Source: Alcaligenes sp. SORT26 (GTDB lineage Bacteria > Pseudomonadota > Gammaproteobacteria > Burkholderiales > Burkholderiaceae_B). From it: DNA of 64,000 bases. The stretch covers positions 992,001 through 1,056,000 of the forward strand of contig NZ_CP070975.1 in assembly GCF_017377875.1 (NCBI RefSeq), in the 5' to 3' direction. The translations under genes and the position numbers were made by a program. A model generated the notes under the pieces. It did not search any database, was not told the origin of the DNA, and was given only the letters and a program-made list of their open reading frames with translations. This document shows positions 52,955-64,000 of the stretch, piece by piece; position 1 is the first letter of the stretch; the number at the start of each line of letters is the position of its first letter.

Positions 52955-54340
52955 TCAGGAAGATTTCAAAGCAGATTGAGCCTGACGCAAGGCCGTACGC
53001 AAACCTTCTTCCAGTACCGGATGGTAGAACGGCATCGCCAACATCTGATCCAGGGTCAGCCCCATCTGCAAGGACCAGGCCAACAGGTGGGCGATATGCT
53101 CGGCTTGAGGCCCGACCATCTCGGCTCCCAGGAACTTGCCCTCCTTGTCCGCATAAACATGCAGCAAGCCACGGTTAACCAGCATCACGCGAGCACGGCC
53201 CTGATTGCCGAAGTTCACGCTCCCTGTCACCGCGCCTTCTGGCAGTGATTTGAAGGGTGTACCAACGACAGCCACCTGCGGATCACTAAATACCACCGCC
53301 ATGCGCGCACGACGCGCCATAGGCTCGTCCTGGCCATTGCTGATGGCCTGCAAAGCGGCCAGACGACCATCATCCGCTGCCTCGTGCAAGATAGGCGCAC
53401 GCTGATTCACATCACCCGCGAGATAAATGGAGGTGCCTTTCAGTTGCAGGCTGTCCATGTCAAAGACCACACGCCCTTTGCTATCCCACTGCGCTGGCGT
53501 ATTTTCCAAGCCCAGATTGTCCAGTTGCGGACTGCGCCCGGCGGCACCCAACACGTAGTCGTAATCCTCGACCACTTCCTTACCATCCACCTGCAAACGC
53601 ACGCGTGCCTTGCCATTGACAACTTCGCTACCCAATACGGCTACGTCAGCGCGAATGTTCAGCTCCTGGCTGAAAATTGCCCGTCCGGCTTCACGCACCT
53701 CGGGATCAGAAAGACCGGCCAGACTCTGGCTGCGGTTGATAATGGAGACTTTCACCCCTACACGCGCCAGCGCCTGCCCCAGCTCCAGACCAATTACGCC
53801 CGTACCGACAACCAGCACGCTTTCCGGTAAATCCGTCCAGTCGAAAACATCCTCGTTATTGATCAGCAAGGCTCCCAGCGGCTCCAGCTCCTTGGGGCGC
53901 ACGGGCGTGGAGCCTGTGGCAATAATCACGTGCTTTGCGGTGATACGAGTATGGTCATCCACCTCCAGCACATGCTCGGAGACAAAGCGGGCATGGCCAC
54001 GCACTTTATCCTCGGCATCAAAGCCTTCCACATCATCCACGACAAACCGCACAAAGCGATCACGCTCACGACGCACCCGGTCCATGACCTGTTTGCCATC
54101 AATGCGAATATCGCCGTCCACATGCACACCAAAGGGAGCGGTATGACGCGCGTGATGCGCCGCATCGGCAGCCGCAATCAGCAGCTTGGAGGGCATGCAG
54201 CCAACCCGTGCGCACATCGTGCCGTAAGGGCCCGACTCGATCATCAGCGTTCTCTTGCCGGCCCGTTTGGCCGTGCGATACGCTGTCATGCCCGCTGTCC
54301 CCGCTCCAATCACGGCAACATCACACTGAATTTCTTTCAT
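52955..54340 (-). CDS. Flavoprotein disulfide reductase, dihydrolipoyl dehydrogenase-like
   Basis: Protein of 461 residues of the class I pyridine nucleotide disulfide oxidoreductases. The FAD motif is VAVIGAGTAGMTAYRTA (about residues 8-24), and the redox cysteines are Cys43 and Cys48 in GTMCARVGCMPSK. The NAD(P) motif is VLVVGTGVIGLELGQAL, ALGDCA is replaced by IYLAGDVNQRAP, and the C-terminal His-Glu pair is in YHPVLEEGLR. It has no lipoyl domain and is only distantly like the lpdA product in this window, so it is not the PDH E3. The substrate is unknown. It is divergent from a CueR-like regulator that may control it. Confidence 0.87.
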   Translation of the reverse strand: MKEIQCDVAVIGAGTAGMTAYRTAKRAGKRTLMIESGPYGTMCARVGCMPSKLLIAAADAAHHARHTAPFGVHVDGDIRIDGKQVMDRVRRERDRFVRFVVDDVEGFDAEDKVRGHARFVSEHVLEVDDHTRITAKHVIIATGSTPVRPKELEPLGALLINNEDVFDWTDLPESVLVVGTGVIGLELGQALARVGVKVSIINRSQSLAGLSDPEVREAGRAIFSQELNIRADVAVLGSEVVNGKARVRLQVDGKEVVEDYDYVLGAAGRSPQLDNLGLENTPAQWDSKGRVVFDMDSLQLKGTSIYLAGDVNQRAPILHEAADDGRLAALQAISNGQDEPMARRARMAVVFSDPQVAVVGTPFKSLPEGAVTGSVNFGNQGRARVMLVNRGLLHVYADKEGKFLGAEMVGPQAEHIAHLLAWSLQMGLTLDQMLAMPFYHPVLEEGLRTALRQAQSALKSS

Positions 54341-54368
54341 AACCGCTCCTTGAATTCATACTAAGGCA

Positions 54369-54382
54369 ATCAGGGGCCTGAT
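54369..54382. promoter_or_regulatory. Candidate operator in the flavoprotein / MerR promoter region
   Basis: ATCAGG-GG-CCTGAT is a 14-base palindrome placed, on the minus strand, five bases before a TAGTAT -10-like element of the flavoprotein gene. A dyad inside the promoter spacer is the usual arrangement for MerR-family control. The -35 is not clear. Confidence 0.4.
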
Positions 54383-54468
54383 GACCTACCCGAGCACCCG
54401 TTCTACAATGTGCAGAATCGACCTTTTCAATCATAACGCAGTCCCCCCGTACTGCCCGAGGAAAGCCC

Positions 54469-54885
54469 ATGCTGATTAGTGAAGCGGCCCGCATCACCGG
54501 CCTGACACCCAAGATGATCCGGCACTATGAAGATCTGGGACTGTTAAATAGTGACCGTGCCCCCAATGGCTATCGTGTCTACCAGGATCAGGACCTAGAT
54601 ACCCTGCACTTTATTGTGCGTGCCAAGGAGCTGGGGTTCAATCTGGCAGACATCCAGCAACTGACCAGCCTGTGGCGCGACCAGCAACGCCCCAGCAGCG
54701 AGGTCAAGCAACTGGCACAGGCCCATATCAAAGCCTTGGAAAGCCGCGCTGCCCTCTTGCTGGACATGGCAGCCAAGCTGCGGGTGCTGGCCGAACAATG
54801 TCAGGGTGACCACCAGCCCGATTGCCCCATTCTGGACGGTTTGGAAGGCGGCCATTGTTCCGGGTCGGCACAAAAAACTGCCTGA
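54469..54885 (+). CDS. MerR family regulator, CueR-like
   Basis: Regulator of 138 residues. The N-terminal winged helix reads MLISEAARITGLTPKMIRHY and EDLGLLNSDRAPNGYRVY, a typical MerR/CueR domain, followed by a dimerisation coiled coil (about residues 75-108). The metal-binding loop holds Cys111 and Cys119 (C-x7-C) in CQGDHQPDCPIL, matching Cys112 and Cys120 of E. coli CueR, and Ser at the position that selects monovalent copper over zinc or mercury is kept (SSEVK). No copper ATPase or copper chaperone is next to it; the divergent flavoprotein gene is the nearest possible target. Confidence 0.9.
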   Translation: MLISEAARITGLTPKMIRHYEDLGLLNSDRAPNGYRVYQDQDLDTLHFIVRAKELGFNLADIQQLTSLWRDQQRPSSEVKQLAQAHIKALESRAALLLDMAAKLRVLAEQCQGDHQPDCPILDGLEGGHCSGSAQKTA

Positions 54886-54954: not shown

Positions 54955-54996
54955 AAAAAAAATGCCTCTCAAACCTTCAACAAGGCTTGAGAGGCA
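54955..54996 (-). terminator. Intrinsic terminator of the TRAP/catabolic operon
   Basis: TGCCTCTCAA (54963-54972) pairs perfectly with TTGAGAGGCA (54987-54996), with an inner CCTT/AAGG stem. On the minus strand it is followed by a run of eight T. It starts 28 bases past the dctM stop codon and closes the operon. Confidence 0.93.
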
Positions 54997-55023
54997 GCGG
55001 CATAGTGCCAATCTATAGATAGG

Positions 55024-56310
55024 CTAGGAACCAGCCACCAAGTTAGGCAGCCACACCGACACTTGTGGGAACAGGGTCAAGATGACGAGTACCAGCAAGG
55101 CCGTGAACAGGAAGGGAGCAATCCCCACCACACCACGCTCCAACGAGATACGAGCCAGCAAGGACGAAATATTCAGGCACAAACCGGCTGGCGGTGTAAT
55201 CAGACCAATACACAGGTTCACGACGGCCACCACGGTAAAGTGAGTCGGATCGATCCCCAGCTTCATCGCAATGGGATAGAGCACAGGAATCAACATCACC
55301 AGTGCGGCATTGGTTTCCAGGAACATACCCACGATCAGCAACAACACATTGACGAACAGCAGGAACACAAGCGGGTTGCTGATGTTTTCCAAAACGAAAG
55401 CGGAAATGGCTTCGGGAATACTGACATACGCCAGCAGCCAGCTAAAGACACGCGCTGCGGCAACGATGATCATGATCACAGCGGTGGTATGGGCTGCGCC
55501 AACCAGGCTGTCTACAAAAATCTTCCAGGTGATCTGACGGTAAATCAGCGTCCCGACGACCAAGGCATAAATCACAGCCATGATGGCCGCTTCGGTAATG
55601 TTGAAAATACCGCTGCGAATGCCACCCAGAATAAAGACTGGCAGCAACAAGGCGAAGGCCGAGTTCTTAAAGGTAATCCAGATTTCCCGGCCCGAGGCTT
55701 TGCCTTGTGTTGGGAAATTATTGCGCTTGCTGATCCACCAGCTCATCACCAGCATGGACAGCATATAAAGAACGCCTGGCACCACACCGGCCAAGAACAA
55801 GGTCGTGATGGACTGGCCTGTCAGTACGGCCACCACAATAAACGGGATGGAAGGCGGAATGATGGGAGCCACCACGTTCGCGGCTGCAATGACGCCGCCT
55901 GCAAAACCGGGGGGATAGCCAGAGCGGATCATGGCGGGAATCATGATGCGGCCCAAAGCGCTGGTGTCCGCGACGGCCGAGCCGGAGATGCCGGCAAACA
56001 TGCCCGAGGCCAGCACACCGCTCATGGCCAGGCCACCTTTGAAACGGCCCAACAAGGCATTGGCAAAATCCAGCAAGCGGCTGGTCAGGCCACCGGAGGT
56101 CATCAGGCTACCAGCCAGGACAAAGAACGGAATGGCCAGCAAGGAAAAACTGTCCAGCCCACTGAACAATTGCTGGGGAACCGCCATCAAGCTGATATCA
56201 CCCAGTGCTACCAAAGCAGCCAGAACGCCCGCCGTGATGGCAAAGCCGATCGGCATGCCAATCAGCATGAGAATGAGCGTCAGAAGGGTAATTAAGGTTA
56301 CGGTGATCAT
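55024..56310 (-). CDS. TRAP transporter large membrane subunit (DctM)
   Basis: Membrane protein of 428 residues with about twelve hydrophobic segments, matching the DctM/SiaM family: MLIGMPIGFAITAGV near the start, LLAIPFFVLAGSLMTSGGLTSRLLDF, FAGGVIAAANVVAPIIPPSIPF and, near the end, VAVVNLCIGLITPPAGLCLN. It forms the sodium-driven translocation channel with DctQ and takes substrate from the periplasmic DctP. It lies 18 bases after dctQ and is the last gene of the operon. Confidence 0.95.
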   Translation of the reverse strand: MITVTLITLLTLILMLIGMPIGFAITAGVLAALVALGDISLMAVPQQLFSGLDSFSLLAIPFFVLAGSLMTSGGLTSRLLDFANALLGRFKGGLAMSGVLASGMFAGISGSAVADTSALGRIMIPAMIRSGYPPGFAGGVIAAANVVAPIIPPSIPFIVVAVLTGQSITTLFLAGVVPGVLYMLSMLVMSWWISKRNNFPTQGKASGREIWITFKNSAFALLLPVFILGGIRSGIFNITEAAIMAVIYALVVGTLIYRQITWKIFVDSLVGAAHTTAVIMIIVAAARVFSWLLAYVSIPEAISAFVLENISNPLVFLLFVNVLLLIVGMFLETNAALVMLIPVLYPIAMKLGIDPTHFTVVAVVNLCIGLITPPAGLCLNISSLLARISLERGVVGIAPFLFTALLVLVILTLFPQVSVWLPNLVAGS

Positions 56311-56328
56311 AAAAAGTGTTTTCCGTAC

Positions 56329-56859
56329 TTAGGGATGCTCGTCGGTACTGCCGGATGTCCAATCAGGCTGACTGCCCAAGCGGATTAACAGCAAAATCAC
56401 TACGCACAAGCCCATTCCCAGCCACAGGGACGCATAGACCCAGGACATGGGGATATCCATCGCTGCCGAGAGCTGAACCGCATTGATTTGCGCAAATTCC
56501 CAACCGTAGTAAGTGATGCAGAGCAAGGTCGCCAGCATCAGCAGGTCGCGAATAATCAAGACGCGTCGTTTCAGCTTGCTTGAAATGTGATCCAGCAAAA
56601 TCGTGACCGTGACATGACCACTACGGCGCAAGACAGCCGCACTGCCCAGCAAGGAAATCCACACCATCAAGAAGCGAGCGACTTCCTCACTCCAGGAGGA
56701 CATATCTTTCAGGACGTAGCGAGAGAAGATCTGCCATGCAATAACCGCACACATCACAAACATCATGCTGCCGATAATCCAGTCCAGCGCCTTTTCAATA
56801 ACAGACGCGCTTTTATCGGCCCAATTTTCTGTTTTGGTCGGTACGTTGTTAGTTGTCAT
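56329..56859 (-). CDS. TRAP transporter small membrane subunit (DctQ)
   Basis: Protein of 176 residues with four membrane helices. Conserved DctQ features include FSRYVLKDMSSWSEEVARFLMVWISLLG and a following arginine-rich connection (AAVLRRSGHVTVTILLDH). It supports DctM. I chose the ATG at 56859 (MTTNNVPTKTENW), because the 13 upstream codons run through the dctP-dctQ gap. It lies 54 bases after dctP. Confidence 0.92.
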   Translation of the reverse strand: MTTNNVPTKTENWADKSASVIEKALDWIIGSMMFVMCAVIAWQIFSRYVLKDMSSWSEEVARFLMVWISLLGSAAVLRRSGHVTVTILLDHISSKLKRRVLIIRDLLMLATLLCITYYGWEFAQINAVQLSAAMDIPMSWVYASLWLGMGLCVVILLLIRLGSQPDWTSGSTDEHP

Positions 56860-56913
56860 AACTTTTACCTGTGGGGTCGGGACATGCGGGTGACACATGT
56901 CCCGATTTTTTCA

Positions 56914-57891
56914 TTATTGAACGGCGCGGATTTTATCCAGCCAAACCTGCAGCTCGGGGAACTCTGCATCCATGGCTTTAATCTTGGTCGCAAAGGCTTC
57001 GCGATCAACGGCGTTAAATGCCATGCCTTTTCCGGTCAGGAACTGCTTCATGTTTTCTTCTTCCACGATCATGCGATCCGTGGCTTCCTTCATGACACGC
57101 TCGCCCTCTTCCTGCAGAATCTGGCGTGTTTCTTCAGGGAGTTTCTTGAAGTAGGCGTCCGAGTAGATCAAGGTCATGGCACCGATGGTGTGCTGAGTTT
57201 CAGCCACGTTCTTTTGCACCTCGAACAGATTGACGTTCTTGATCACTTCCAGGGGGTTTTCCTGGCCATCAATCATGCCGTGCTGCAAGGAAGTGAACAG
57301 CTCGGCCATGCCCATAGGCACCGGGCTGGCACCCAGCGTGGTCCAGGTGCTGCGATACATACGCAGTGGAGGGACACGCATTTTCAAACCGTGCAAATCA
57401 TCCGGGTTTTGAATCACACGGTTCGATGTCAGGTAACGAGCACCGCGGTAGGCCGCCCCCACCAGCTTGAACCCGCTTTCCTTGGCGATCTGGTCATACA
57501 GCTCCTGGCCGACTGGGCCGGTATAAACCGCACGGTAGTGATCCATATCGCGAATCAGGTAGGGGTAGGCTTCGACACCGGCCGATTTTGCGTAGCGATC
57601 CAGGGCCCCCACACTTTGCAGCACGATGTGATTAGTGCTCATGCGCAGGCCTTCAATGGACTGAGGCCAGTCACCAGTCAAACCATTGGCGTCGATATTG
57701 ATCTTGATTTTCCCGCCCGAACGCTCTTCAACAGCGGCTTTAAAGCGCTCTGCTGTTTGCCCCCAATGATCCTGGACGGCATAAATATGCGCAAACTTCA
57801 GCGTAACGGGTTTGATTTCTGCCTGAGCGGCAACACTGCTGAACAAGCCAACAGCGGCAAAAACGGTAGCGAGTAGAGAAAACTTTTTCAT
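56914..57891 (-). CDS. TRAP transporter substrate-binding protein (DctP)
   Basis: Periplasmic binding protein of 325 residues. A signal peptide (about residues 1-24, KKFSLLATVFAAVGLFSSVAAQA) is followed by VTLKFAHIYAVQDHWGQTAERF. The conserved region DLHGLKMRVPPLRMYRSTW holds the Arg that usually grips the substrate carboxylate, and FTSLQHGMIDGQENPLEVI is the DctP signature. It thus most likely imports an organic acid. The specific ligand cannot be read. It lies 39 bases after the dehydroquinase-like gene in the same operon. Confidence 0.94.
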   Translation of the reverse strand: MKKFSLLATVFAAVGLFSSVAAQAEIKPVTLKFAHIYAVQDHWGQTAERFKAAVEERSGGKIKINIDANGLTGDWPQSIEGLRMSTNHIVLQSVGALDRYAKSAGVEAYPYLIRDMDHYRAVYTGPVGQELYDQIAKESGFKLVGAAYRGARYLTSNRVIQNPDDLHGLKMRVPPLRMYRSTWTTLGASPVPMGMAELFTSLQHGMIDGQENPLEVIKNVNLFEVQKNVAETQHTIGAMTLIYSDAYFKKLPEETRQILQEEGERVMKEATDRMIVEEENMKQFLTGKGMAFNAVDREAFATKIKAMDAEFPELQVWLDKIRAVQ

Positions 57892-57930
57892 GTCTTCCTC
57901 CGTATTAATCGTTATATGAAAAGAGGTGGA

Positions 57931-58464
57931 CTACTGACCGGAAGGGCGACCCAGGAAGCTCTGATCATCCAGAGCCAGGGTCATGGCGGTCAAGGCAGCC
58001 AGATAGCTGTAATGGCGCATGCCCATGCAAATGCCAGTAGCGGTATGGGTGAAACTGGACTGAATGCTGCCACCACCCAAACCACGGGCAGCGCCTGCAC
58101 TGGCAGCAATGTTCGAGAAGTGAACTTCCATCACGGGCAGCTCAGTGTCTTCCAGGGCATGACGCACGCCTTCCCCAATCGTGGTCAGGCCAGCGGGATT
58201 GATCAGGTAGCCATCCACCCGATGAGCGGACTCGTGGATGTATTCCAAAATATCGCCCATGTGATTGGACGAAAAATTCTCTACCTCTACACCCAACTGC
58301 TCACCAAAGTTGCGCACGCACTCCTTGAGCTCGTCCAGGGACTGGATGTTTCCATAGACTTTTTTGCTGCGCTTACCTAGGCTCGACATGTTCGGGCCAT
58401 CAATCACAGCGATAAGGTGTTTGCGGTTGGAAGAACGGGTGATGGTGAAGTTATGTGCACTCAT
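57931..58464 (-). CDS. Divergent type II 3-dehydroquinate dehydratase-like protein
   Basis: Protein of 177 residues with the flavodoxin-like fold of type II dehydroquinase (AroQ/AroD). Kept: IDGPNMSSLG (Asn25), Arg32 and the catalytic Tyr37 in KRSKKVYGN, Asn89 in LINPAGLTT, and EVHFSN (Glu113, His115). Changed: the substrate-binding His of the family GGLTH motif is Thr95, and the loop that normally carries the second substrate Arg (ARE.FR.HS) is replaced by a glycine-rich insert (AGAARGLGGGSIQSS). The protein also has a longer N-terminus. Its operon is catabolic, not aromatic biosynthesis. I expect a related dehydration or hydration on another ring substrate. Confidence 0.8.
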   Translation of the reverse strand: MSAHNFTITRSSNRKHLIAVIDGPNMSSLGKRSKKVYGNIQSLDELKECVRNFGEQLGVEVENFSSNHMGDILEYIHESAHRVDGYLINPAGLTTIGEGVRHALEDTELPVMEVHFSNIAASAGAARGLGGGSIQSSFTHTATGICMGMRHYSYLAALTAMTLALDDQSFLGRPSGQ

Positions 58465-58490
58465 GCTTGGAAGCCTCTTGCTAAGTGGGA

Positions 58491-59246
58491 TTAGTTAAAA
58501 CGCAGACCAGCATCCACGTTCAGTGTCTGACCAGTGATGTATTTGCTTTCATCAGAAGCCAGGAACATGGTGGCGCCGATCATGTCGCTGACATCCCCTT
58601 TGCGTTTCAGGGTTTGGGCAGCGATGATGGCGTCCCATTGCTCTGGACGAATGGTGTCGCGTGGGACTTCAGTCACGATGCCGTGCGGGCTGATAGCATT
58701 GACGTTGATGCAGTACTCACCCAGCTCGGTGGCCAGGGCGCGGGTCAAGGCAACAACCGCCCCTTTAGAGGCCACGTAGTGCGCGTAATTCGCACGGCCC
58801 GTCACCACAACGCTGGAAGAAATATTGATGATCTTGCCGCTTTGCTGTTGCTTCATGAAGGGCGATACCGCCTTGATGCAGTTAAAGACACCACGGGCAT
58901 TCACGCCCATCACAAAGTCCCACTCGTCTGCGTCGATTTCTTCAAATGGCTTCATTTTCAGGGTCGAGAAAACGGCCGCATTGTTAATCAGCACGTCCAC
59001 CGTGCCAAAGGCTTTGACTGCCTGCGCAACCATCTCGGCCGTGCTCTTGTCGTCCGACACATCAACTTTGACGGCCAGTGCCTGACCATTTTCTGCCTGA
59101 ATTTCTGCGGCAACAGCCTGTGCTTTTTCGATGTTCAAATCAGCCACCACCACCGCAGCACCTGCCTTGGCAAATTCTTGCGCGTAGGCACGACCAATCC
59201 CTTGGCCCGCTCCGGTGATAATCACTGTTTTATTTTCAAATCTCAC
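58491..59246 (-). CDS. Short-chain dehydrogenase/reductase (first of two)
   Basis: Protein of 251 residues, classical SDR. The cofactor motif TGAGQGIG is at about residues 11-18 and VVVADLN with an acidic residue after strand 2 suggests NAD(H). NNAA, the catalytic Ser in NISSSVVV and the Tyr/Lys pair in YVASKGAVVALTRAL are intact. It ends with ITGQTLNVDAGLRFN. It is expected to oxidise a secondary alcohol to a ketone. It lies 26 bases upstream of the dehydroquinase-like gene, and only about 30% of its residues look shared with the second SDR by eye. Confidence 0.92.
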   Translation of the reverse strand: MRFENKTVIITGAGQGIGRAYAQEFAKAGAAVVVADLNIEKAQAVAAEIQAENGQALAVKVDVSDDKSTAEMVAQAVKAFGTVDVLINNAAVFSTLKMKPFEEIDADEWDFVMGVNARGVFNCIKAVSPFMKQQQSGKIINISSSVVVTGRANYAHYVASKGAVVALTRALATELGEYCINVNAISPHGIVTEVPRDTIRPEQWDAIIAAQTLKRKGDVSDMIGATMFLASDESKYITGQTLNVDAGLRFN

Positions 59247-59279
59247 GATAGTTCCTTATTGATATGGGTATGAATGTGT

Positions 59280-60026
59280 TCAGGCAGGCATACGCAAGGT
59301 AGCCATACCACCATCAATATTGATGATGGTGCCGGTGTAAGACAGCGCACCCGGATGGGCAACGTGGGCAACCAGACGAGCAACCTCTTCGGGCTGAACC
59401 ATTTGCCCGGTGGGTTGGCGACCGTGAAACTCATTGCGCTTGGCCACCGGATCGCTAGTGCGATTGGCCAGCTCGGTCATGAAGGGGGTGTCTACGGTGG
59501 CGGGGGCAATGCCCACTACGCGAATCTGCTCGGCAATCAAATCGGCGGACATGGCCAGCGTCATGGACTGGATCGCCCCTTTGCTGGCTGAATACAGCGC
59601 ACGCTCGGGCAAACCATTGATCGCGGTGCAAGAAGACATATTGACGATCACGGCATTTTTCGACTGACGCAAATACGGCAAACACGCACGCGTACTACGC
59701 ATATAGCCCAGCACGTTGATATTAAAAATGCGCAGCCAGTCTTCGTCACTGCCATCTTCTATCGTGCCCACAAAGCTCACACCGGCGTTGTTGACCAAGA
59801 CATCAATGCGACCCTGTTCCTGGGCGAACCCGGCCAGTGCCAGATTCAAGGATTCCTGATCGGTCACATCAGCAATCAAAGCCGTAGCCCCTTCCGGGAT
59901 GCCCTCAGGCTGACGGTCAATACCGCCAACGATAGCGCCCAGCTCCAGCAGGTGCTGGCATACAGCCTGGCCTATGCCTGCGGCGGCACCTGTGACAACA
60001 ACGATTCGGCCTGTAAAGTCTGACAT
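59280..60026 (-). CDS. Short-chain dehydrogenase/reductase (second of two)
   Basis: Protein of 248 residues, classical SDR. The cofactor motif TGAAAGIGQAV is at about residues 12-22, IGGIDRQ-like segment GGIDRQPEG follows strand 2 (Asp favours NAD), then NNAG, the catalytic Ser in NMSSCTAING and the Tyr/Lys pair in YSASKGAIQSMTLAM. It ends GTIINIDGGMATLRMPA. Two SDRs in one operon suggest two separate alcohol or ketone steps in the pathway. It lies 8 bases after the alpha/beta hydrolase gene. Confidence 0.92.
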   Translation of the reverse strand: MSDFTGRIVVVTGAAAGIGQAVCQHLLELGAIVGGIDRQPEGIPEGATALIADVTDQESLNLALAGFAQEQGRIDVLVNNAGVSFVGTIEDGSDEDWLRIFNINVLGYMRSTRACLPYLRQSKNAVIVNMSSCTAINGLPERALYSASKGAIQSMTLAMSADLIAEQIRVVGIAPATVDTPFMTELANRTSDPVAKRNEFHGRQPTGQMVQPEEVARLVAHVAHPGALSYTGTIINIDGGMATLRMPA

Positions 60027-60034
60027 AAGCGTTC

Positions 60035-60868
60035 CTAGCGAAAATGAGTGGTGCCGGATGCCTTGAAATGCGCCAATAGCAAGTCAATCAAGGTATCGGG
60101 CGGGGTCAGTGGCAACATGTGCCCTCCCCCATCAATAATGTGTAGCGCGGTCTGTGTCTTGCCCGCCTTGTGCAAAGCATCCAGGATGATCTGCATGGCA
60201 CTGGCGGGGGTAGACAGATCCTGGCTGCCCGTCAGCAGCAAAGTGGCCGGCAAGTGCGCCGCCAGGTCGCCGTACCCGGAAAACTGGGCAAGACTTTGCC
60301 AACTGCTCAGCAATGTCTCCACCGGAACCAGGCTGAGCTGTTGCTCTGCGTACTGCATGGCTTGGGCTAGCTCAGGGCTGGTCTCCAGCCCACCAAACCA
60401 GCGCTGCATGGTGGTCTCTACAATGGTTTGACGACTTTCATGCTGCATGGCCTGAGCACGCTCACCAAATACCGCCAAGCCCATCGGCGGGCTGGCGATA
60501 ATGCTCAGGCTTTGCACCGTTTTAGTGGGACGATCGGCCAGCCTGGCCGCTGCCAGCGCTGCAATCACCCCGCCAATCGAATGTCCCAGCAAATGAACCT
60601 TGTCAAAACGGCAGGACTCCACCACCTTGACGGCATCGTCCACCAAGGTATCCAGGTCGAAATGCGATAGCGCGGCGGCCGAGCCATGACCTCGCAGGTC
60701 GTAGCTCAGACACGGGTAATCGGCAGCCAAGTGGCTGAACAGTGCGTCAAAGGAGCACGCATCGACCCCGATGGAGTGCAAGGCAATGACACACTCATCA
60801 CGGCTCGCGCCCGTCTCTGCGACGAGCAAAGAGCTTGGGTAATGAAGCCTGGCCAATGGGGTCGTCAT
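60035..60868 (-). CDS. Alpha/beta hydrolase (PcaD/enol-lactonase-like)
   Basis: Protein of 277 residues with the alpha/beta hydrolase fold. The nucleophile elbow GHSIGG follows KVHLLGHSIGGVIAAL, the strand DLRGHGSA precedes it, the acid is expected in LLLTGSQDLSTP, and the catalytic His is in IDGGGHMLPL. The layout resembles 3-oxoadipate enol-lactonase and C-C bond hydrolases. I chose the ATG at 60868, which overlaps the CoA-transferase stop codon (ATGA). In this pathway it could open a lactone, a ring diketone or a thioester. Confidence 0.88.
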   Translation of the reverse strand: MTTPLARLHYPSSLLVAETGASRDECVIALHSIGVDACSFDALFSHLAADYPCLSYDLRGHGSAAALSHFDLDTLVDDAVKVVESCRFDKVHLLGHSIGGVIAALAAARLADRPTKTVQSLSIIASPPMGLAVFGERAQAMQHESRQTIVETTMQRWFGGLETSPELAQAMQYAEQQLSLVPVETLLSSWQSLAQFSGYGDLAAHLPATLLLTGSQDLSTPASAMQIILDALHKAGKTQTALHIIDGGGHMLPLTPPDTLIDLLLAHFKASGTTHFR

Positions 60869-62091
60869 GCTTGGCTGCACGTGCTGTTCAACAACACGCC
60901 TTTACTTTGTAAAGACGACACGGCTTCAGCAGACAGGCTTAACCACTCACCCAACACGCGCGCATCATCCTCGCCCTTCTTGGGCGGGAACCGGGATGGA
61001 GCAGCATCAGCGCCCACGAACTTGATGGGGTTTCCAACCACCTCAATACTGTGGTCTTCATTTTGAAGGGCCAGAATCATGCTGCGCTCTGAATCGCGTG
61101 CATGTGCCAATGCCTCTGGAACGGACTGGATCAGGGCAACCGGCACGCTATGCTCTTCCAATAATGGAATCCAATGCGCAGCCGCCTGGGTCGCGAAAGC
61201 GCTTTCAAGCAGCTCCCACAAGGCCTGTTTGTTTTTCAGACGGCTGGCGCCATTCTGAAAGCGCTCATCGTCAATCAGCGACTCCAGGCCCAGCACACGG
61301 CACAAGCCTTGCCACATTCTCTCGGTATTGGCCGTCACTACAAACTCGCGGCCATCCCCACCTCGGAAAGAGCGATAGGTAGGAATAGAATCATGCTTGG
61401 CCCCTTGGGGAGCAGGCGTCACGTCCGCAATCAAGGCGTAAGCACTTTGATAAGACAGCATGGCTAACTGGCAATCCAGCATCGCCACATCCACAATCCG
61501 ACCCTTACCAGTACGTTCCCTGTCAGCCAGGGCAGCATTGATAGCGATAGTCGCGTACAGGCCAGCCACCGTATCACCGGCTGGAATACCCAAACGTACG
61601 GCGGGTCTGCCCTCTTCGCCCGTCAGGCTCATGACGCCTGACAAGGCTTGCACAATCATGTCGTACGCAGGTTTGTCGCGATCCGGGCCGGTTTGTCCAA
61701 AACCACTAATGGACGCCCAGACCAGACCGGGATGCTCTTCACACAGGGCCTGCGGATCCAGGCCCAGACGGGCTGCCACACCGGGGCGGTAGTTTTCCAC
61801 AACCACATCCGCTTTCAGGATCAGTTGTCGAACCAGATCCAGCCCTTCGGCGGTTTTCAGATTTACCGCCAAACTGCTTTTATTGCGGTTGATACTCAGA
61901 TAGTAAGCACTATCCTCACCCACAAAATGGGGGGGAATACTGCGACTGGAGTCACCTTCCGGTGCCTCGATCTTGACCACTTCAGCCCCCAGATCCCCCA
62001 GCACTTGCGTACAAAAGGGACCGGACAAAAAGGTAGTGAGGTCGATGACCTTATAGCCTGCCAGGGGCTGCGCGGTAGCGGTATGACTCAT
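60865..62091 (-). CDS. Family III CoA-transferase (CaiB/BaiF type)
   Basis: Protein of 408 residues. The N-terminus GYKVIDLTTFLSGPFCTQVL then LGDLGAEVVKIEAPEGDSSR is the family signature. The catalytic Asp144 is in KPAYDMIVQALSGVM, and NRNKSSLAVNLKTAEGLDLV and VVENYRPGVAARLG are conserved. It moves CoA between carboxylic acids, so it probably activates the imported acid. Its start overlaps the iclR stop codon by 4 bases and its stop overlaps the hydrolase start, so translation is coupled through three genes. Confidence 0.94.
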   Translation of the reverse strand: MSHTATAQPLAGYKVIDLTTFLSGPFCTQVLGDLGAEVVKIEAPEGDSSRSIPPHFVGEDSAYYLSINRNKSSLAVNLKTAEGLDLVRQLILKADVVVENYRPGVAARLGLDPQALCEEHPGLVWASISGFGQTGPDRDKPAYDMIVQALSGVMSLTGEEGRPAVRLGIPAGDTVAGLYATIAINAALADRERTGKGRIVDVAMLDCQLAMLSYQSAYALIADVTPAPQGAKHDSIPTYRSFRGGDGREFVVTANTERMWQGLCRVLGLESLIDDERFQNGASRLKNKQALWELLESAFATQAAAHWIPLLEEHSVPVALIQSVPEALAHARDSERSMILALQNEDHSIEVVGNPIKFVGADAAPSRFPPKKGEDDARVLGEWLSLSAEAVSSLQSKGVLLNSTCSQA

Positions 62092-62894
62092 AATTTGGTT
62101 TTTCTATGTCGGTATCCGAACATCTCGGACAGTTTTTCGGCATGATGAATAACGGCAGCGGTAATGGCGCTCAAACCTGCACTGGGCACACGGGTGGTGG
62201 GCATGGTCAAACAAATACAGCCCACAATGCCGTGGTTATCAAAGACAGGTGCGGCAACCCCGCGTGCATCGGGCAACTTCTCGCTCATGCTGTGGGCATA
62301 ACCGTTCTGGCGCACTTCGCTCAGTTCTGCCAGGAGCGACTCCAAAGCAGGCAAAGGTGCATCTTGCGCCGGAGAGGTTTCAGCCTTGGCATACACACGC
62401 TCTATCGTGTCCTGATCCAGATACGCCAAAATAGCTTTGCCGGACGCGCCCCATACCAGGGACATGGGCTTGTGCAAATCAATCTGATATTGCAGCTTGT
62501 GCTCGCCCCGTGCGATGGCGGCAAAACTCATGGCCGACTCGCTGACGGCATACGTGCCAAACAGAACGGTCTCGTTGAACTCGGAAGCAATCTCGTCCAG
62601 AGAGTTTTGTGCCAATGCAGGCTTGGATTCAGCGCTCATGACTTGCGCCGCTACTCGATAAAATTCAGGCCCAATGCTGTACAAACCACTGCCACCACTG
62701 ACCACCGCAACAAAATCATCTTTGCGCAGCAGATTCAGCAAGCGGTGAGCCGTTGAAGGGGCCAGGCCCATTTGCTCGGACACTTGCTTGACGGTTACCG
62801 GGCCGTTGGACTCGGCCAAGACAGCCAATAGCTGAAGCGCGCGGCTTACGGTTCCGGTTGAACTAGTAGAGGTGGACGTGTTTTGTGTGGTCAT
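62088..62894 (-). CDS. IclR family transcriptional regulator
   Basis: Regulator of 268 residues. A Ser/Thr-rich leader (about residues 1-14) precedes the IclR winged helix (GTVSRALQLLAVLAESNGPV, VKQVSEQMGLAPSTAHRLLNLL). The C-terminal GAF-like effector domain contains LVWGASGKAILAYLD and RGVAAPVFDNHGIVGCICLTMP. The gene lies inside the operon, overlapping both neighbours by 4 bases, so it is made together with the enzymes it likely controls. Effector and operator are not visible; the operon promoter is outside the window. Confidence 0.93.
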   Translation of the reverse strand: MTTQNTSTSTSSTGTVSRALQLLAVLAESNGPVTVKQVSEQMGLAPSTAHRLLNLLRKDDFVAVVSGGSGLYSIGPEFYRVAAQVMSAESKPALAQNSLDEIASEFNETVLFGTYAVSESAMSFAAIARGEHKLQYQIDLHKPMSLVWGASGKAILAYLDQDTIERVYAKAETSPAQDAPLPALESLLAELSEVRQNGYAHSMSEKLPDARGVAAPVFDNHGIVGCICLTMPTTRVPSAGLSAITAAVIHHAEKLSEMFGYRHRKTKL

Positions 62895-64000
62895 ATCTGG
62901 GCTTCAAAAATATGGATTGCACAAGCACCATGATCAAGGCCCGCAATACCGCCACCCGTGACGTGAGTCATGGCGTAGCGAGCATCAGGAACCTGACGTT
63001 CTCCGGCCTGGTGTGTCAGTTGCCAGTACATTTCCACGGCTTGGGCCACACCGCTTGCTCCCACTGGGTGACCCTTGGCCAGCAAACCTCCACTGGGGTT
63101 CACCACCACGTCACCGCCGTAGGTACTGCGGCCATCCAGCAGAAACTGAGCGGACTGCCCGACCTCACACAAACCTAGTGCTTCGTAATAAATAAGTTCG
63201 GCGATTGTAAACGCGTCATGCAGCTCAACTGCATCCAGATCCTGGGCGGTGATCCCCGCCATCTTGTAGGCGTCGCGGGCGGATTCCGCTGAAATCTCGG
63301 GACGGGTCATATCGCGAAAGCCGCTGGTCGCCTGACCGGAATGCAGCACGGACGCAGCGACACGCATGGCAGGTTTCTGCAAGCGTTTCAAGGCACGCTC
63401 GGACACCATGATCAAGGCTGCCGCGCCATCACCCGTAGGGCAACATTGCAGCAAGGTCAGCGGATCACAAATAGGACGGGATGCCAGCACCTGCTCCACC
63501 GTCAGCGGATCGCGATACTGTGCATAGGGATTATGTTTGCTGTGTGTGCGAGCCTTGATGGAGACCTGTGCCAGAACTTCTGGCCCCAGATTGCGTTCAT
63601 GCAGGTAACGACGAGCACGCATGCCATATACCGCAGGCATCACCAAACCTTGCTGGACTTCGGGATCTTCCTGCACCAAAGGCAAGGTGCCTCCGCCAAA
63701 CTGCGTGAGCTTGTCCACACCGATCACCAGTACGACGTCGTGTCGGCCAGCCTGGATATCTTTCCACGCCAAGTGAATGGCCGTGGCCCCACCCGAGCAG
63801 GCGTTATCGCAATTGACGACGGGCACCGTGCCAATACCGATTTCCTTGACCAAGCGCTGTCCCGTCAACATGCCGCCAAAGGCGTGGCCGCAAACAACAG
63901 CATCAATATCCTGAGCCTGTACACCAGCACTGGCCATCGCGTTCAGGATGGCAGGCAAGGCCAAACCGGTATAGCTGGATTCTTTATGACGAGCCATGGG
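62891..64000 (-). CDS. Thiolase family protein, SCP2/lipid-transfer type (cut by window edge)
   Basis: At least 368 residues are in the window. The first Met available (63997) is followed by MARHKESSYTGLALPAILNAM, which corresponds to a region some way into SCP2-type thiolases, so the true start is probably just beyond base 64000. The acyl-accepting Cys is in NCDNACSGGATAIHLA, the NEAF-like motif is HDAF in VELHDAFTIAEL, and GGLLAKGHPVGASG holds the catalytic His. SCP2-type thiolases cleave 3-ketoacyl-CoA, often with branched or ring-derived chains. These sometimes act with a DUF35/OB-fold partner, which would be upstream outside the window. It overlaps iclR by 4 bases. Confidence 0.9.
   Translation of the reverse strand, partial: PMARHKESSYTGLALPAILNAMASAGVQAQDIDAVVCGHAFGGMLTGQRLVKEIGIGTVPVVNCDNACSGGATAIHLAWKDIQAGRHDVVLVIGVDKLTQFGGGTLPLVQEDPEVQQGLVMPAVYGMRARRYLHERNLGPEVLAQVSIKARTHSKHNPYAQYRDPLTVEQVLASRPICDPLTLLQCCPTGDGAAALIMVSERALKRLQKPAMRVAASVLHSGQATSGFRDMTRPEISAESARDAYKMAGITAQDLDAVELHDAFTIAELIYYEALGLCEVGQSAQFLLDGRSTYGGDVVVNPSGGLLAKGHPVGASGVAQAVEMYWQLTHQAGERQVPDARYAMTHVTGGGIAGLDHGACAIHIFEAQI

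Follow-up and report, generated by a model that had tools for sequence, protein, structure and literature searches.

Several described systems lie close to the one reported here. The lower beta-ketoadipate pathway (PcaD, PcaIJ, PcaF, PcaR) combines a hydrolase, a coenzyme A (CoA)-transferase and a thiolase with an IclR regulator, a logic that our locus shares. In the bbs pathway of benzylsuccinate breakdown, BbsCD carries out an oxidation and BbsAB a cleavage, and the operon also encodes a two-subunit CoA-transferase (BbsEF) and an acyl-CoA dehydrogenase (BbsG); the pathway presumably relies on a family III CoA-transferase and two short-chain dehydrogenases (SDRs), as does our operon. A third relative is the type II dehydroquinase AroQ, and we know of no catabolic role for any relative of this enzyme. 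Here we analysed a 64,000-nucleotide stretch of Alcaligenes sp. SORT26 (hereafter the window), i.e. positions 992001-1056000 of a 4.08 Mb single-contig genome (NZ_CP070975.1), and focused on a twelve-gene operon that runs past its end and comprises a tripartite ATP-independent periplasmic (TRAP) importer, a dehydroquinase-like (DHQ-like) protein and a set of catabolic enzymes. Our preferred reading, to which we give a probability of about 0.45, is that the operon acts as a single unit degrading one imported, sugar-acid-like polyhydroxylated acid or lactone.

The twelve genes are co-directional on the minus strand, ten of them in 55024-64000 and two more past position 64000. They are transcribed in the order HydA, DUF35, thiolase, IclR, CoA-transferase, HydB, SDR2, SDR1, DHQ-like, DctP, DctQ, DctM, and are given below from the terminator upwards.

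54963..54996, minus strand: predicted operon terminator (15-pair stem, loop of 4, then T8)
55024..56310, minus strand: DctM, TRAP large permease (DctM 397.5 bits, Pfam cut-off 23.8; TIGR00786 438 bits, cut-off 268)
56329..56898, minus strand: DctQ, TRAP small permease (DctQ 106.3 bits, Pfam cut-off 28.3)
56914..57891, minus strand: DctP, TRAP solute-binding protein (221 bits, Pfam cut-off 23.4)
57931..58464, minus strand: DHQ-like, type II dehydroquinase-like protein, probable dehydratase (DHquinase_II 108 bits)
58491..59246, minus strand: SDR1, short-chain dehydrogenase (adh_short_C2)
59280..60026, minus strand: SDR2, short-chain dehydrogenase (adh_short)
60035..60880, minus strand: HydB, alpha/beta hydrolase (Abhydrolase_6; GTG start, ATG alternative at 60868)
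60865..62091, minus strand: family III CoA-transferase (CoA_transf_3, 391.7 bits)
62088..62894, minus strand: IclR-family regulator (IclR_C and HTH_IclR)
62891..64000, minus strand: BbsB-like thiolase of 381 amino acids, the gene extending to 64036 outside the window (best solved relative 7pxp)
64038-64475, minus strand, outside the window: DUF35/OB-fold protein, thiolase partner encoded by the adjacent gene
64494-65324, minus strand, outside the window: HydA, second alpha/beta hydrolase (alpha/beta hydrolase family)

A first-pass annotation of the window had described ten genes on one strand, and all were recovered on the minus strand of 55024-64000 with the families it had named; the DNA past 64000 added the end of the thiolase gene, DUF35 and HydA, bringing the count to twelve. 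With the starts used here the largest gap is 39 bases, not the 54 that it gave as upper bound, and the tight junctions it mentioned correspond to three 4-base overlaps and one gap of 8. Gaps amount to 18 bases (DctM-DctQ), 15 (DctQ-DctP), 39 (DctP-DHQ-like), 26 (DHQ-like-SDR1), 33 (SDR1-SDR2), 8 (SDR2-HydB) and 1 (thiolase-DUF35), and the 4-base overlaps join HydB to the CoA-transferase (with the ATG start at 60868), the CoA-transferase to IclR and IclR to the thiolase. The strong terminator announced at the operon end was also found, in a scanned stretch that holds 22 terminator-like sites vs 10.0 (standard deviation 3.3) in shuffled sequences. At the other end, the 220 bases upstream of HydA contain a palindrome (see below) and, 3' of a nitroreductase gene, a hairpin with a T run; this hairpin was read by eye and was not listed by the terminator scan. 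The twelve genes most likely constitute one catabolic transcription unit between terminator-like hairpins. By family assignment, none of the twelve encodes an oxygenase; an acyl-CoA dehydrogenase is likewise missing among the twelve genes, the remaining genome not having been searched for one.

In the Alcaligenes genomes examined, the operon is present or absent as a whole block. The stretch with the flanking nitroreductase gene was found in 10/10 genomes of the genus, and the DHQ-like gene in four of the ten, own genome counted. Of the six operon-less genomes, four have 103-284 bases between the nitroreductase gene and a MerR-type gene, and the other two have 2.3 and 3.1 kb of DNA there, without operon matches. 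In strain SORT26, the same flanking genes enclose all twelve genes, at a distance of about 10.66 kb from each other; of the three other carriers, two were retrieved, and both have the complete set of twelve in this position. Within the genus, a genome thus has the importer genes together with the enzyme genes or has neither. The MerR-type regulator is adjoined by a dihydrolipoamide-dehydrogenase-like gene (window 52955-54885), and in all eight genus genomes examined besides our own, these two genes border the operon place on its downstream side. The thiolase of an Alcaligenes faecalis record is 99 % identical to that of the window. A plasmid nucleotide search using 58000-63900 as query matched 33 records, none covering most of the query.

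To compare the operon with relatives elsewhere, a genome collection was scanned with the thiolase, which yielded 38 loci (related loci carry L numbers below). Open reading frames (ORFs) were called mechanically in these loci, and some of those chosen in GC-rich loci are probably spurious. Much of the gene set recurs in Proteobacteria and Actinobacteria with differing importers, although it is rare, and co-conservation of the set, as looked for after the first-pass annotation, was indeed found. The full enzyme set occurs in Alcaligenes (L027, L028), Achromobacter (L029), Pseudoprimorskyibacter (L039), Granulosicoccus relatives (L040, L046), a Rhodobacteraceae metagenome-assembled genome (L062), Marivita (L048), Leucobacter (L045), Aeromicrobium (L047, L049) and Nesterenkonia (L064). 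Gene content is nested. Close relatives of SDR2 were found at 17/38 loci, each with a DHQ-like gene, which itself occurs at 18 loci (the additional one, L052, is a 3.1 kb contig). Close relatives of SDR1 occur at 13/38 loci, all 13 with both HydA and DHQ-like; HydA was found at 15 loci, L031 and L052 being short contigs. DHQ-like is missing from 20 loci, seven of them truncated and 13 longer. No DHQ-like gene was detected at E 1e-40 in the genomes of the 13 longer loci (0/13), and one of the seven genomes with short loci has such a gene (L051).

The DHQ-like protein is the most distinctive member of the set. Its predicted fold is that of a type II dehydroquinase: with the structural model, the best Foldseek match was 6hsq (E 1.2e-8, TM-score 0.66 by query) and all best 50 matches listed were dehydroquinases; the model has a predicted local distance difference test (pLDDT) score of 76, and loop 119-140 is unreliable. 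Its score against the aroQ model TIGR01088 (105.4-105.8 bits) does not reach the cut-off of 169.85, whereas a separate normal AroQ elsewhere in the genome scores 204.5 bits. The active site was compared in 15 operonic DHQ-like rows, that of the window among them; L027, L047 and L052 did not enter this alignment. As in AroQ, Asn12, Arg19, Tyr24, Asn75, Glu99 and His101 are retained in 15/15 rows. Unlike AroQ, all 15 have Thr for His81 and His for Asp88, and in place of the Arg108/Arg112 stretch they carry an insertion rich in Gly and Ala, in which Arg127 is new and invariant. The position of Arg112 reads Ala, Ser or Pro in all rows, the insertion making the alignment there less sure, and that of Ser103 reads Ser in five rows and Ala in ten.

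The roles of these residues are described for the M. tuberculosis and H. pylori dehydroquinases in PMC6011038: Asn75 and Ser103 hold the carboxylate, Tyr24 with Arg19 takes the C2 proton, and His101 protonates the leaving C1 hydroxyl. According to the same source, the essential Asp88, contributed by the neighbouring subunit, activates Tyr24 besides holding the C4 hydroxyl, and the C5 hydroxyl is held by His81 and Arg112 (PMC6011038). As aligned, the DHQ-like protein keeps the enolate and leaving-group residues without those holding the C4 and C5 hydroxyls, and we read it as an enzyme that would carry out this type of elimination on a beta-hydroxy keto acid other than dehydroquinate. It appears to have been diverted from amino-acid biosynthesis to catabolism. 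Quinate or shikimate, two of the acids that the first-pass annotation had listed for growth tests, would fit the type II dehydroquinase fold and the retained Arg/Tyr/His catalytic set, with SDR2 forming 3-dehydroquinate and the DHQ-like protein converting it to 3-dehydroshikimate. Such a route is nevertheless very unlikely, because the hydroxyl-holding residues (His81, Asp88, Arg112) are replaced in 15/15 operonic rows and the genome has its separate AroQ; moreover, the CoA-transferase and thiolase would be superfluous on the established way to protocatechuate.

In a tree, 23 DHQ-like rows (15 operonic, 8 others) are split from 11 AroQ rows (98/92), but long branches meet in this tree. At the level of order, class and phylum, sampling recovered the operonic type from our own genome only (1/250, 1/369 and 1/398, respectively), so that an unbiased co-occurrence sample anchored on the DHQ-like protein is too thin. 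In the family sample, 16/268 genomes match at E 1e-20: six stand apart, i.e. four of the genus (own included), G296 at 76 % and G331 at 54 % identity, and the ten others, 33-36 % identical, look like ordinary AroQ. In G331 (L024), the DHQ-like gene sits between a major facilitator superfamily (MFS) transporter and an alpha/beta hydrolase, with neither thiolase nor CoA-transferase nearby. Tandem dehydroquinase-like pairs, 35-44 % identical to the window's protein, were seen in Mesorhizobium plasmid pWSM4875 (L021:13473-14498) and Shinella zoogloeoides plasmid p3_Teo12 (L022:4047-5019), where they adjoin molybdenum (Mo)-hydroxylase subunits and a succinate-semialdehyde dehydrogenase; in each pair, the first copy is devoid of the Arg/Tyr lid. 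These pairs may represent another orphan catabolic use of the dehydroquinase fold. A further pair (42 % and 46 % identical), in an uncultured Jannaschia isolate (L050:14662-15728), adjoins the core module described below, but on the other strand, and possibly links the tandem type to the twelve-gene operon type.

Importers were considered next to the enzymes. A fold search with DctP returned the TRAP binder fold, and its nearest solved relatives are 4pc9, 4nq8 and 4p9k, whose ligands we take to be aldonate, pantoate or erythronate. Across a 14-row alignment, Arg172 is invariant and Arg152 and Asn212 are kept in at least 90 % of rows. DctP resembles sugar-acid, pantoate and erythronate TRAP binders in being nearest to such solved structures, whereas relatives of the operon also use other TRAP types, an ATP-binding cassette (ABC) or an MFS importer. 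The window's TRAP type was found at L039, L040, L046 and L062, a fused-permease TRAP at L029 and L038, and other TRAPs at L041, L047, L049, L057 and L064; in Sphingomonas soli, an MFS gene lies downstream of the cluster. In Leucobacter soli, where we found no TRAP, HydA is preceded on its own strand by a sugar-type ABC importer and, after it, a lactonase-like gene (143 of 475 bits with the AhlS model, 123.5 of 325 with the 4-pyridoxolactonase model). Together, the importers point to a sugar-acid-like compound over a plain alicyclic acid. Thus, of the "alicyclic or polyhydroxylated" acid first put forward, the polyhydroxylated part gains weight and the plain alicyclic part loses it. We favour a sugar-acid-like substrate because of the neighbours of the TRAP binder with their presumed ligands, because of the Leucobacter importer and lactonase-like gene, and because the DHQ-like protein retains the machinery for a carboxylate, a hydroxyl and a ketone.

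The last steps would involve the CoA-transferase and a two-subunit thiolase. The best solved relative of the thiolase is the benzoylsuccinyl-CoA thiolase 7pxp (E 3.1e-85), but its score with the BbsB model NF053628 (325.3 bits) does not reach the cut-off of 750. Alignments revealed Cys80, presumably the nucleophile position, and an HDAF motif, shared with BbsB, in place of HDCF, the form found in the SCP2 thiolase 6hsj. The DUF35 partner matches the BbsA model weakly (45.8 of 250 bits). A DUF35 relative accompanies the thiolase at 36/38 loci by tblastn and at the other two (L059, L060) by blastp. Its zinc cysteines (CxxC...CxxC) read SxSS...CxET in SORT26; 24 of the 36 aligned rows, window included, are without the four cysteines and 12 retain them, namely ten actinobacterial rows and two alphaproteobacterial ones, L055 and L063, whose loci yielded no DHQ-like gene. 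Outside this alignment, the DUF35 proteins of L054, L059 and L060 retain them as well. Since Leucobacter, Aeromicrobium and Nesterenkonia keep the cysteines beside the same enzyme set, zinc looks dispensable in the proteobacterial form. The CoA-transferase is nearest to the succinate--hydroxymethylglutarate CoA-transferase 9br7 (E 4.8e-78), a type that acts on dicarboxylates and depends on succinate, and a benzylsuccinate CoA-transferase subunit matches at E 4e-31 only. From these affinities, CoA would come from succinyl-CoA, and the compound cleaved would be a substituted 3-oxoacyl-CoA.

The same proteins raise the question of a benzylsuccinate-like pathway. Such a route would start with activation of an alkyl- or aryl-(hydroxyalkyl)succinate, continue with oxidation by the two SDRs and end in cleavage to an acyl-CoA and succinyl-CoA. 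The thiolase and DUF35 protein nearest to BbsB and BbsA, the two SDRs and the family III CoA-transferase agree with this. On the other hand, there is a single CoA-transferase, of SUGCT type, no acyl-CoA dehydrogenase among the twelve genes and no set of zinc cysteines, and the DHQ-like protein would be left without a task; we consider this pathway distinctly improbable. The DHQ-like protein, the two hydrolases and the TRAP importer are additions of our operon with respect to bbs. Membership in bbs proper was rejected on the basis of the sub-cut-off scores, the missing zinc cysteines and the lack of BbsEF- and BbsG-type genes among the twelve.

For the hydrolases, the best NCBIfam models of HydB are PcaDC (112 bits, cut-off 390) and PcaD (99.8 bits, cut-off 255.85), and its nearest solved structure is the KAI2-like 6azc (E 4e-10). 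HydA scores 119.9 of 255.85 bits with PcaD and weakly matches a polyhydroxyalkanoate (PHA) depolymerase model (52 bits, cut-off 300); the SDRs match 3-hydroxybutyrate dehydrogenase models below cut-off. The PHA depolymerase and 3-hydroxybutyrate dehydrogenase matches would suit the use of hydroxy-fatty acids or PHA oligomers through an esterase, a 3-hydroxyacid dehydrogenase, a CoA-transferase and a thiolase. We regard this as the least probable of the alternatives, the thiolase being of the DUF35 type and not classical, and the DHQ-like protein having no role in it, yet being present wherever a close SDR2 is (17/17). Compared with the lower beta-ketoadipate pathway, the operon has a CoA-transferase and a thiolase of other types, and both its hydrolases and its regulator fall far below the Pca cut-offs (72.1 of 284.75 bits for IclR with the PcaR/PcaU model).

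The core formed by DUF35, thiolase, CoA-transferase and often HydB also occurs without DHQ-like and close SDR2. In Pigmentiphaga its neighbour is a hydroxylase that, among solved structures, is nearest to 6-hydroxynicotinate 3-monooxygenase (NicC-like, E 9.6e-119), and ORFs of the same cluster were found at L036, L053, L056 and L059, Variovorax among them; these five hydroxylase-bearing loci have neither a DHQ-like protein nor a close SDR2. In Variovorax paradoxus VAI-C, the core adjoins a Mo-hydroxylase, a glucose-methanol-choline (GMC) oxidoreductase and an aldehyde dehydrogenase; in Allopusillimonas, methylaspartate-lyase-like and PrpD-like genes; and in Mycobacterium branderi and Pseudonocardia thermophila, KstD-like dehydrogenase and enoyl-CoA hydratase genes. 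From these varied contexts, the core looks like a plug-in end-piece, SDR2 and DHQ-like forming a substrate-specific front. The hydroxylase and Mo-hydroxylase neighbours, together with the PcaD-type models that score best with both HydA and HydB, would be expected if the substrate were an aromatic or N-heterocyclic acid, its ring opened inside or outside the operon and the second half standing in for the lower beta-ketoadipate pathway. We judge this unlikely, though it is the most credible of the alternatives: no oxygenase is found among the twelve genes, the palindrome lies nowhere else in the genome, the five hydroxylase loci are those without the SDR2 and DHQ-like front, and the Leucobacter importer is of sugar type.

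On the Variovorax paradoxus VAI-C plasmid (L065:6267-24089), the core is part of a long gene row that includes a branched-chain-type ABC importer and an enoyl-CoA hydratase, with two palindrome copies in front; its make-up is reminiscent of a furan-acid pathway. In Allopusillimonas ginsengisoli (L033:2664-9998), TRAP, enoyl-CoA hydratase, methylaspartate-ammonia-lyase-like and MmgE/PrpD genes stand ahead of the core, and variant palindromes precede both halves.

The palindrome ATTCCG-ATTAA-CGGAAT (ATTCCG-N5-CGGAAT) precedes HydA just outside the window. It has one site in the genome, and the reversed control has none. With at most one mismatch, it is conserved in the 2.5 kb before the thiolase at 12/38 loci, vs a mean of 0.15 and a maximum of 2 loci for 100 permutations of the half-site; L027 and L028, which count among the 12, come from other Alcaligenes and are close to the window. 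Outside that 2.5 kb stretch, copies precede the TRAP genes heading the rearranged Aeromicrobium and Nesterenkonia clusters. Because of this position and conservation, we infer that the IclR protein binds the palindrome before HydA.

On these grounds, the following pathway may be proposed, in which the substrate class, the order of steps, the role of each hydrolase and the products are all putative. The acid would be imported by the TRAP system. HydA would open a lactone or ester and SDR1 would oxidise one hydroxyl, an upper tier that is not seen in some relatives. SDR2 would form a beta-hydroxy ketone, from which the DHQ-like protein would remove water via an enolate, and the enol-lactone or diketone so formed would be hydrolysed by HydB, giving a 3-oxo acid. 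The CoA-transferase would then transfer CoA from succinyl-CoA, and the DUF35/thiolase pair would cleave the substituted 3-oxoacyl-CoA, perhaps with succinyl-CoA regained, as happens when benzylsuccinate is degraded. IclR would act at the palindrome before HydA. An isosaccharinate-like compound is a more speculative candidate substrate, proposed from its structure only, as its carboxylate, hydroxyl, CH2 and CHOH are arranged like C1-C3 of quinate; nothing on isosaccharinate genes was found in the literature searched.

Several points weigh against this proposal. Ligands of TRAP binders are hard to assign from sequence, and HydA and HydB both score far below every curated cut-off. Dehydration by the DHQ-like protein is a deduction from the residues kept, as Asp88 is His and Ser103 is Ala in 10/15 rows, and the loss of Asp88 leaves room for another reaction; a 54 %-identical DHQ-like gene in a genome of the same taxonomic family (L024:10250-10783, G331) also lies outside any such operon. 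Co-occurrence counts are conditional on the thiolase, on which the sample was anchored, and, since the core occurs beside other enzymes, the thiolase may have no particular link to sugar acids. In Marivita (L048), SDR1 and HydA form a separate divergent unit, and Azospirillum agricola (L038) has the set without detectable HydB. As for the palindrome, it is absent even at two mismatches from the 2.5 kb before the thiolase in 21/38 loci; in its relaxed form it also occurs away from the operon in other genomes (up to 5 sites), is missing from 3/18 genomes or records, and its reversed control matches in 4/18.

With these points taken into account, a single unit importing and degrading one acid, as suggested at first pass, is still supported as a reading of the sequences, and the literature, searched to a limited depth, likewise yielded no characterised pathway with this set. 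Taken one by one, the parts belong to known kinds, whereas the way they are combined and a dehydroquinase relative with an apparently catabolic role seem not to be described in the literature searched. A wider and more tentative idea, which we think rather unlikely but not negligible, is that the dehydroquinase fold was recruited as a general beta-hydroxy-keto-acid dehydratase, serving a CoA-dependent route for 3-deoxy or branched, isosaccharinate-like aldonic acids in which the sugar-acid skeleton becomes a 3-oxo acid that a zinc-free DUF35 thiolase cleaves.

As it stands, the operon is one of many orphan catabolic operons. It nevertheless represents a complete, compact pathway, and the genus Alcaligenes supplies both natural carriers and natural empty-site strains for comparison. 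It also provides an in-family example of a DUF35 thiolase subunit without zinc cysteines. Public records label related genes 'type II 3-dehydroquinate dehydratase', a label that would mislead. If the proposed reading is true, this would be, to our knowledge, the first catabolic role for a type II dehydroquinase relative.

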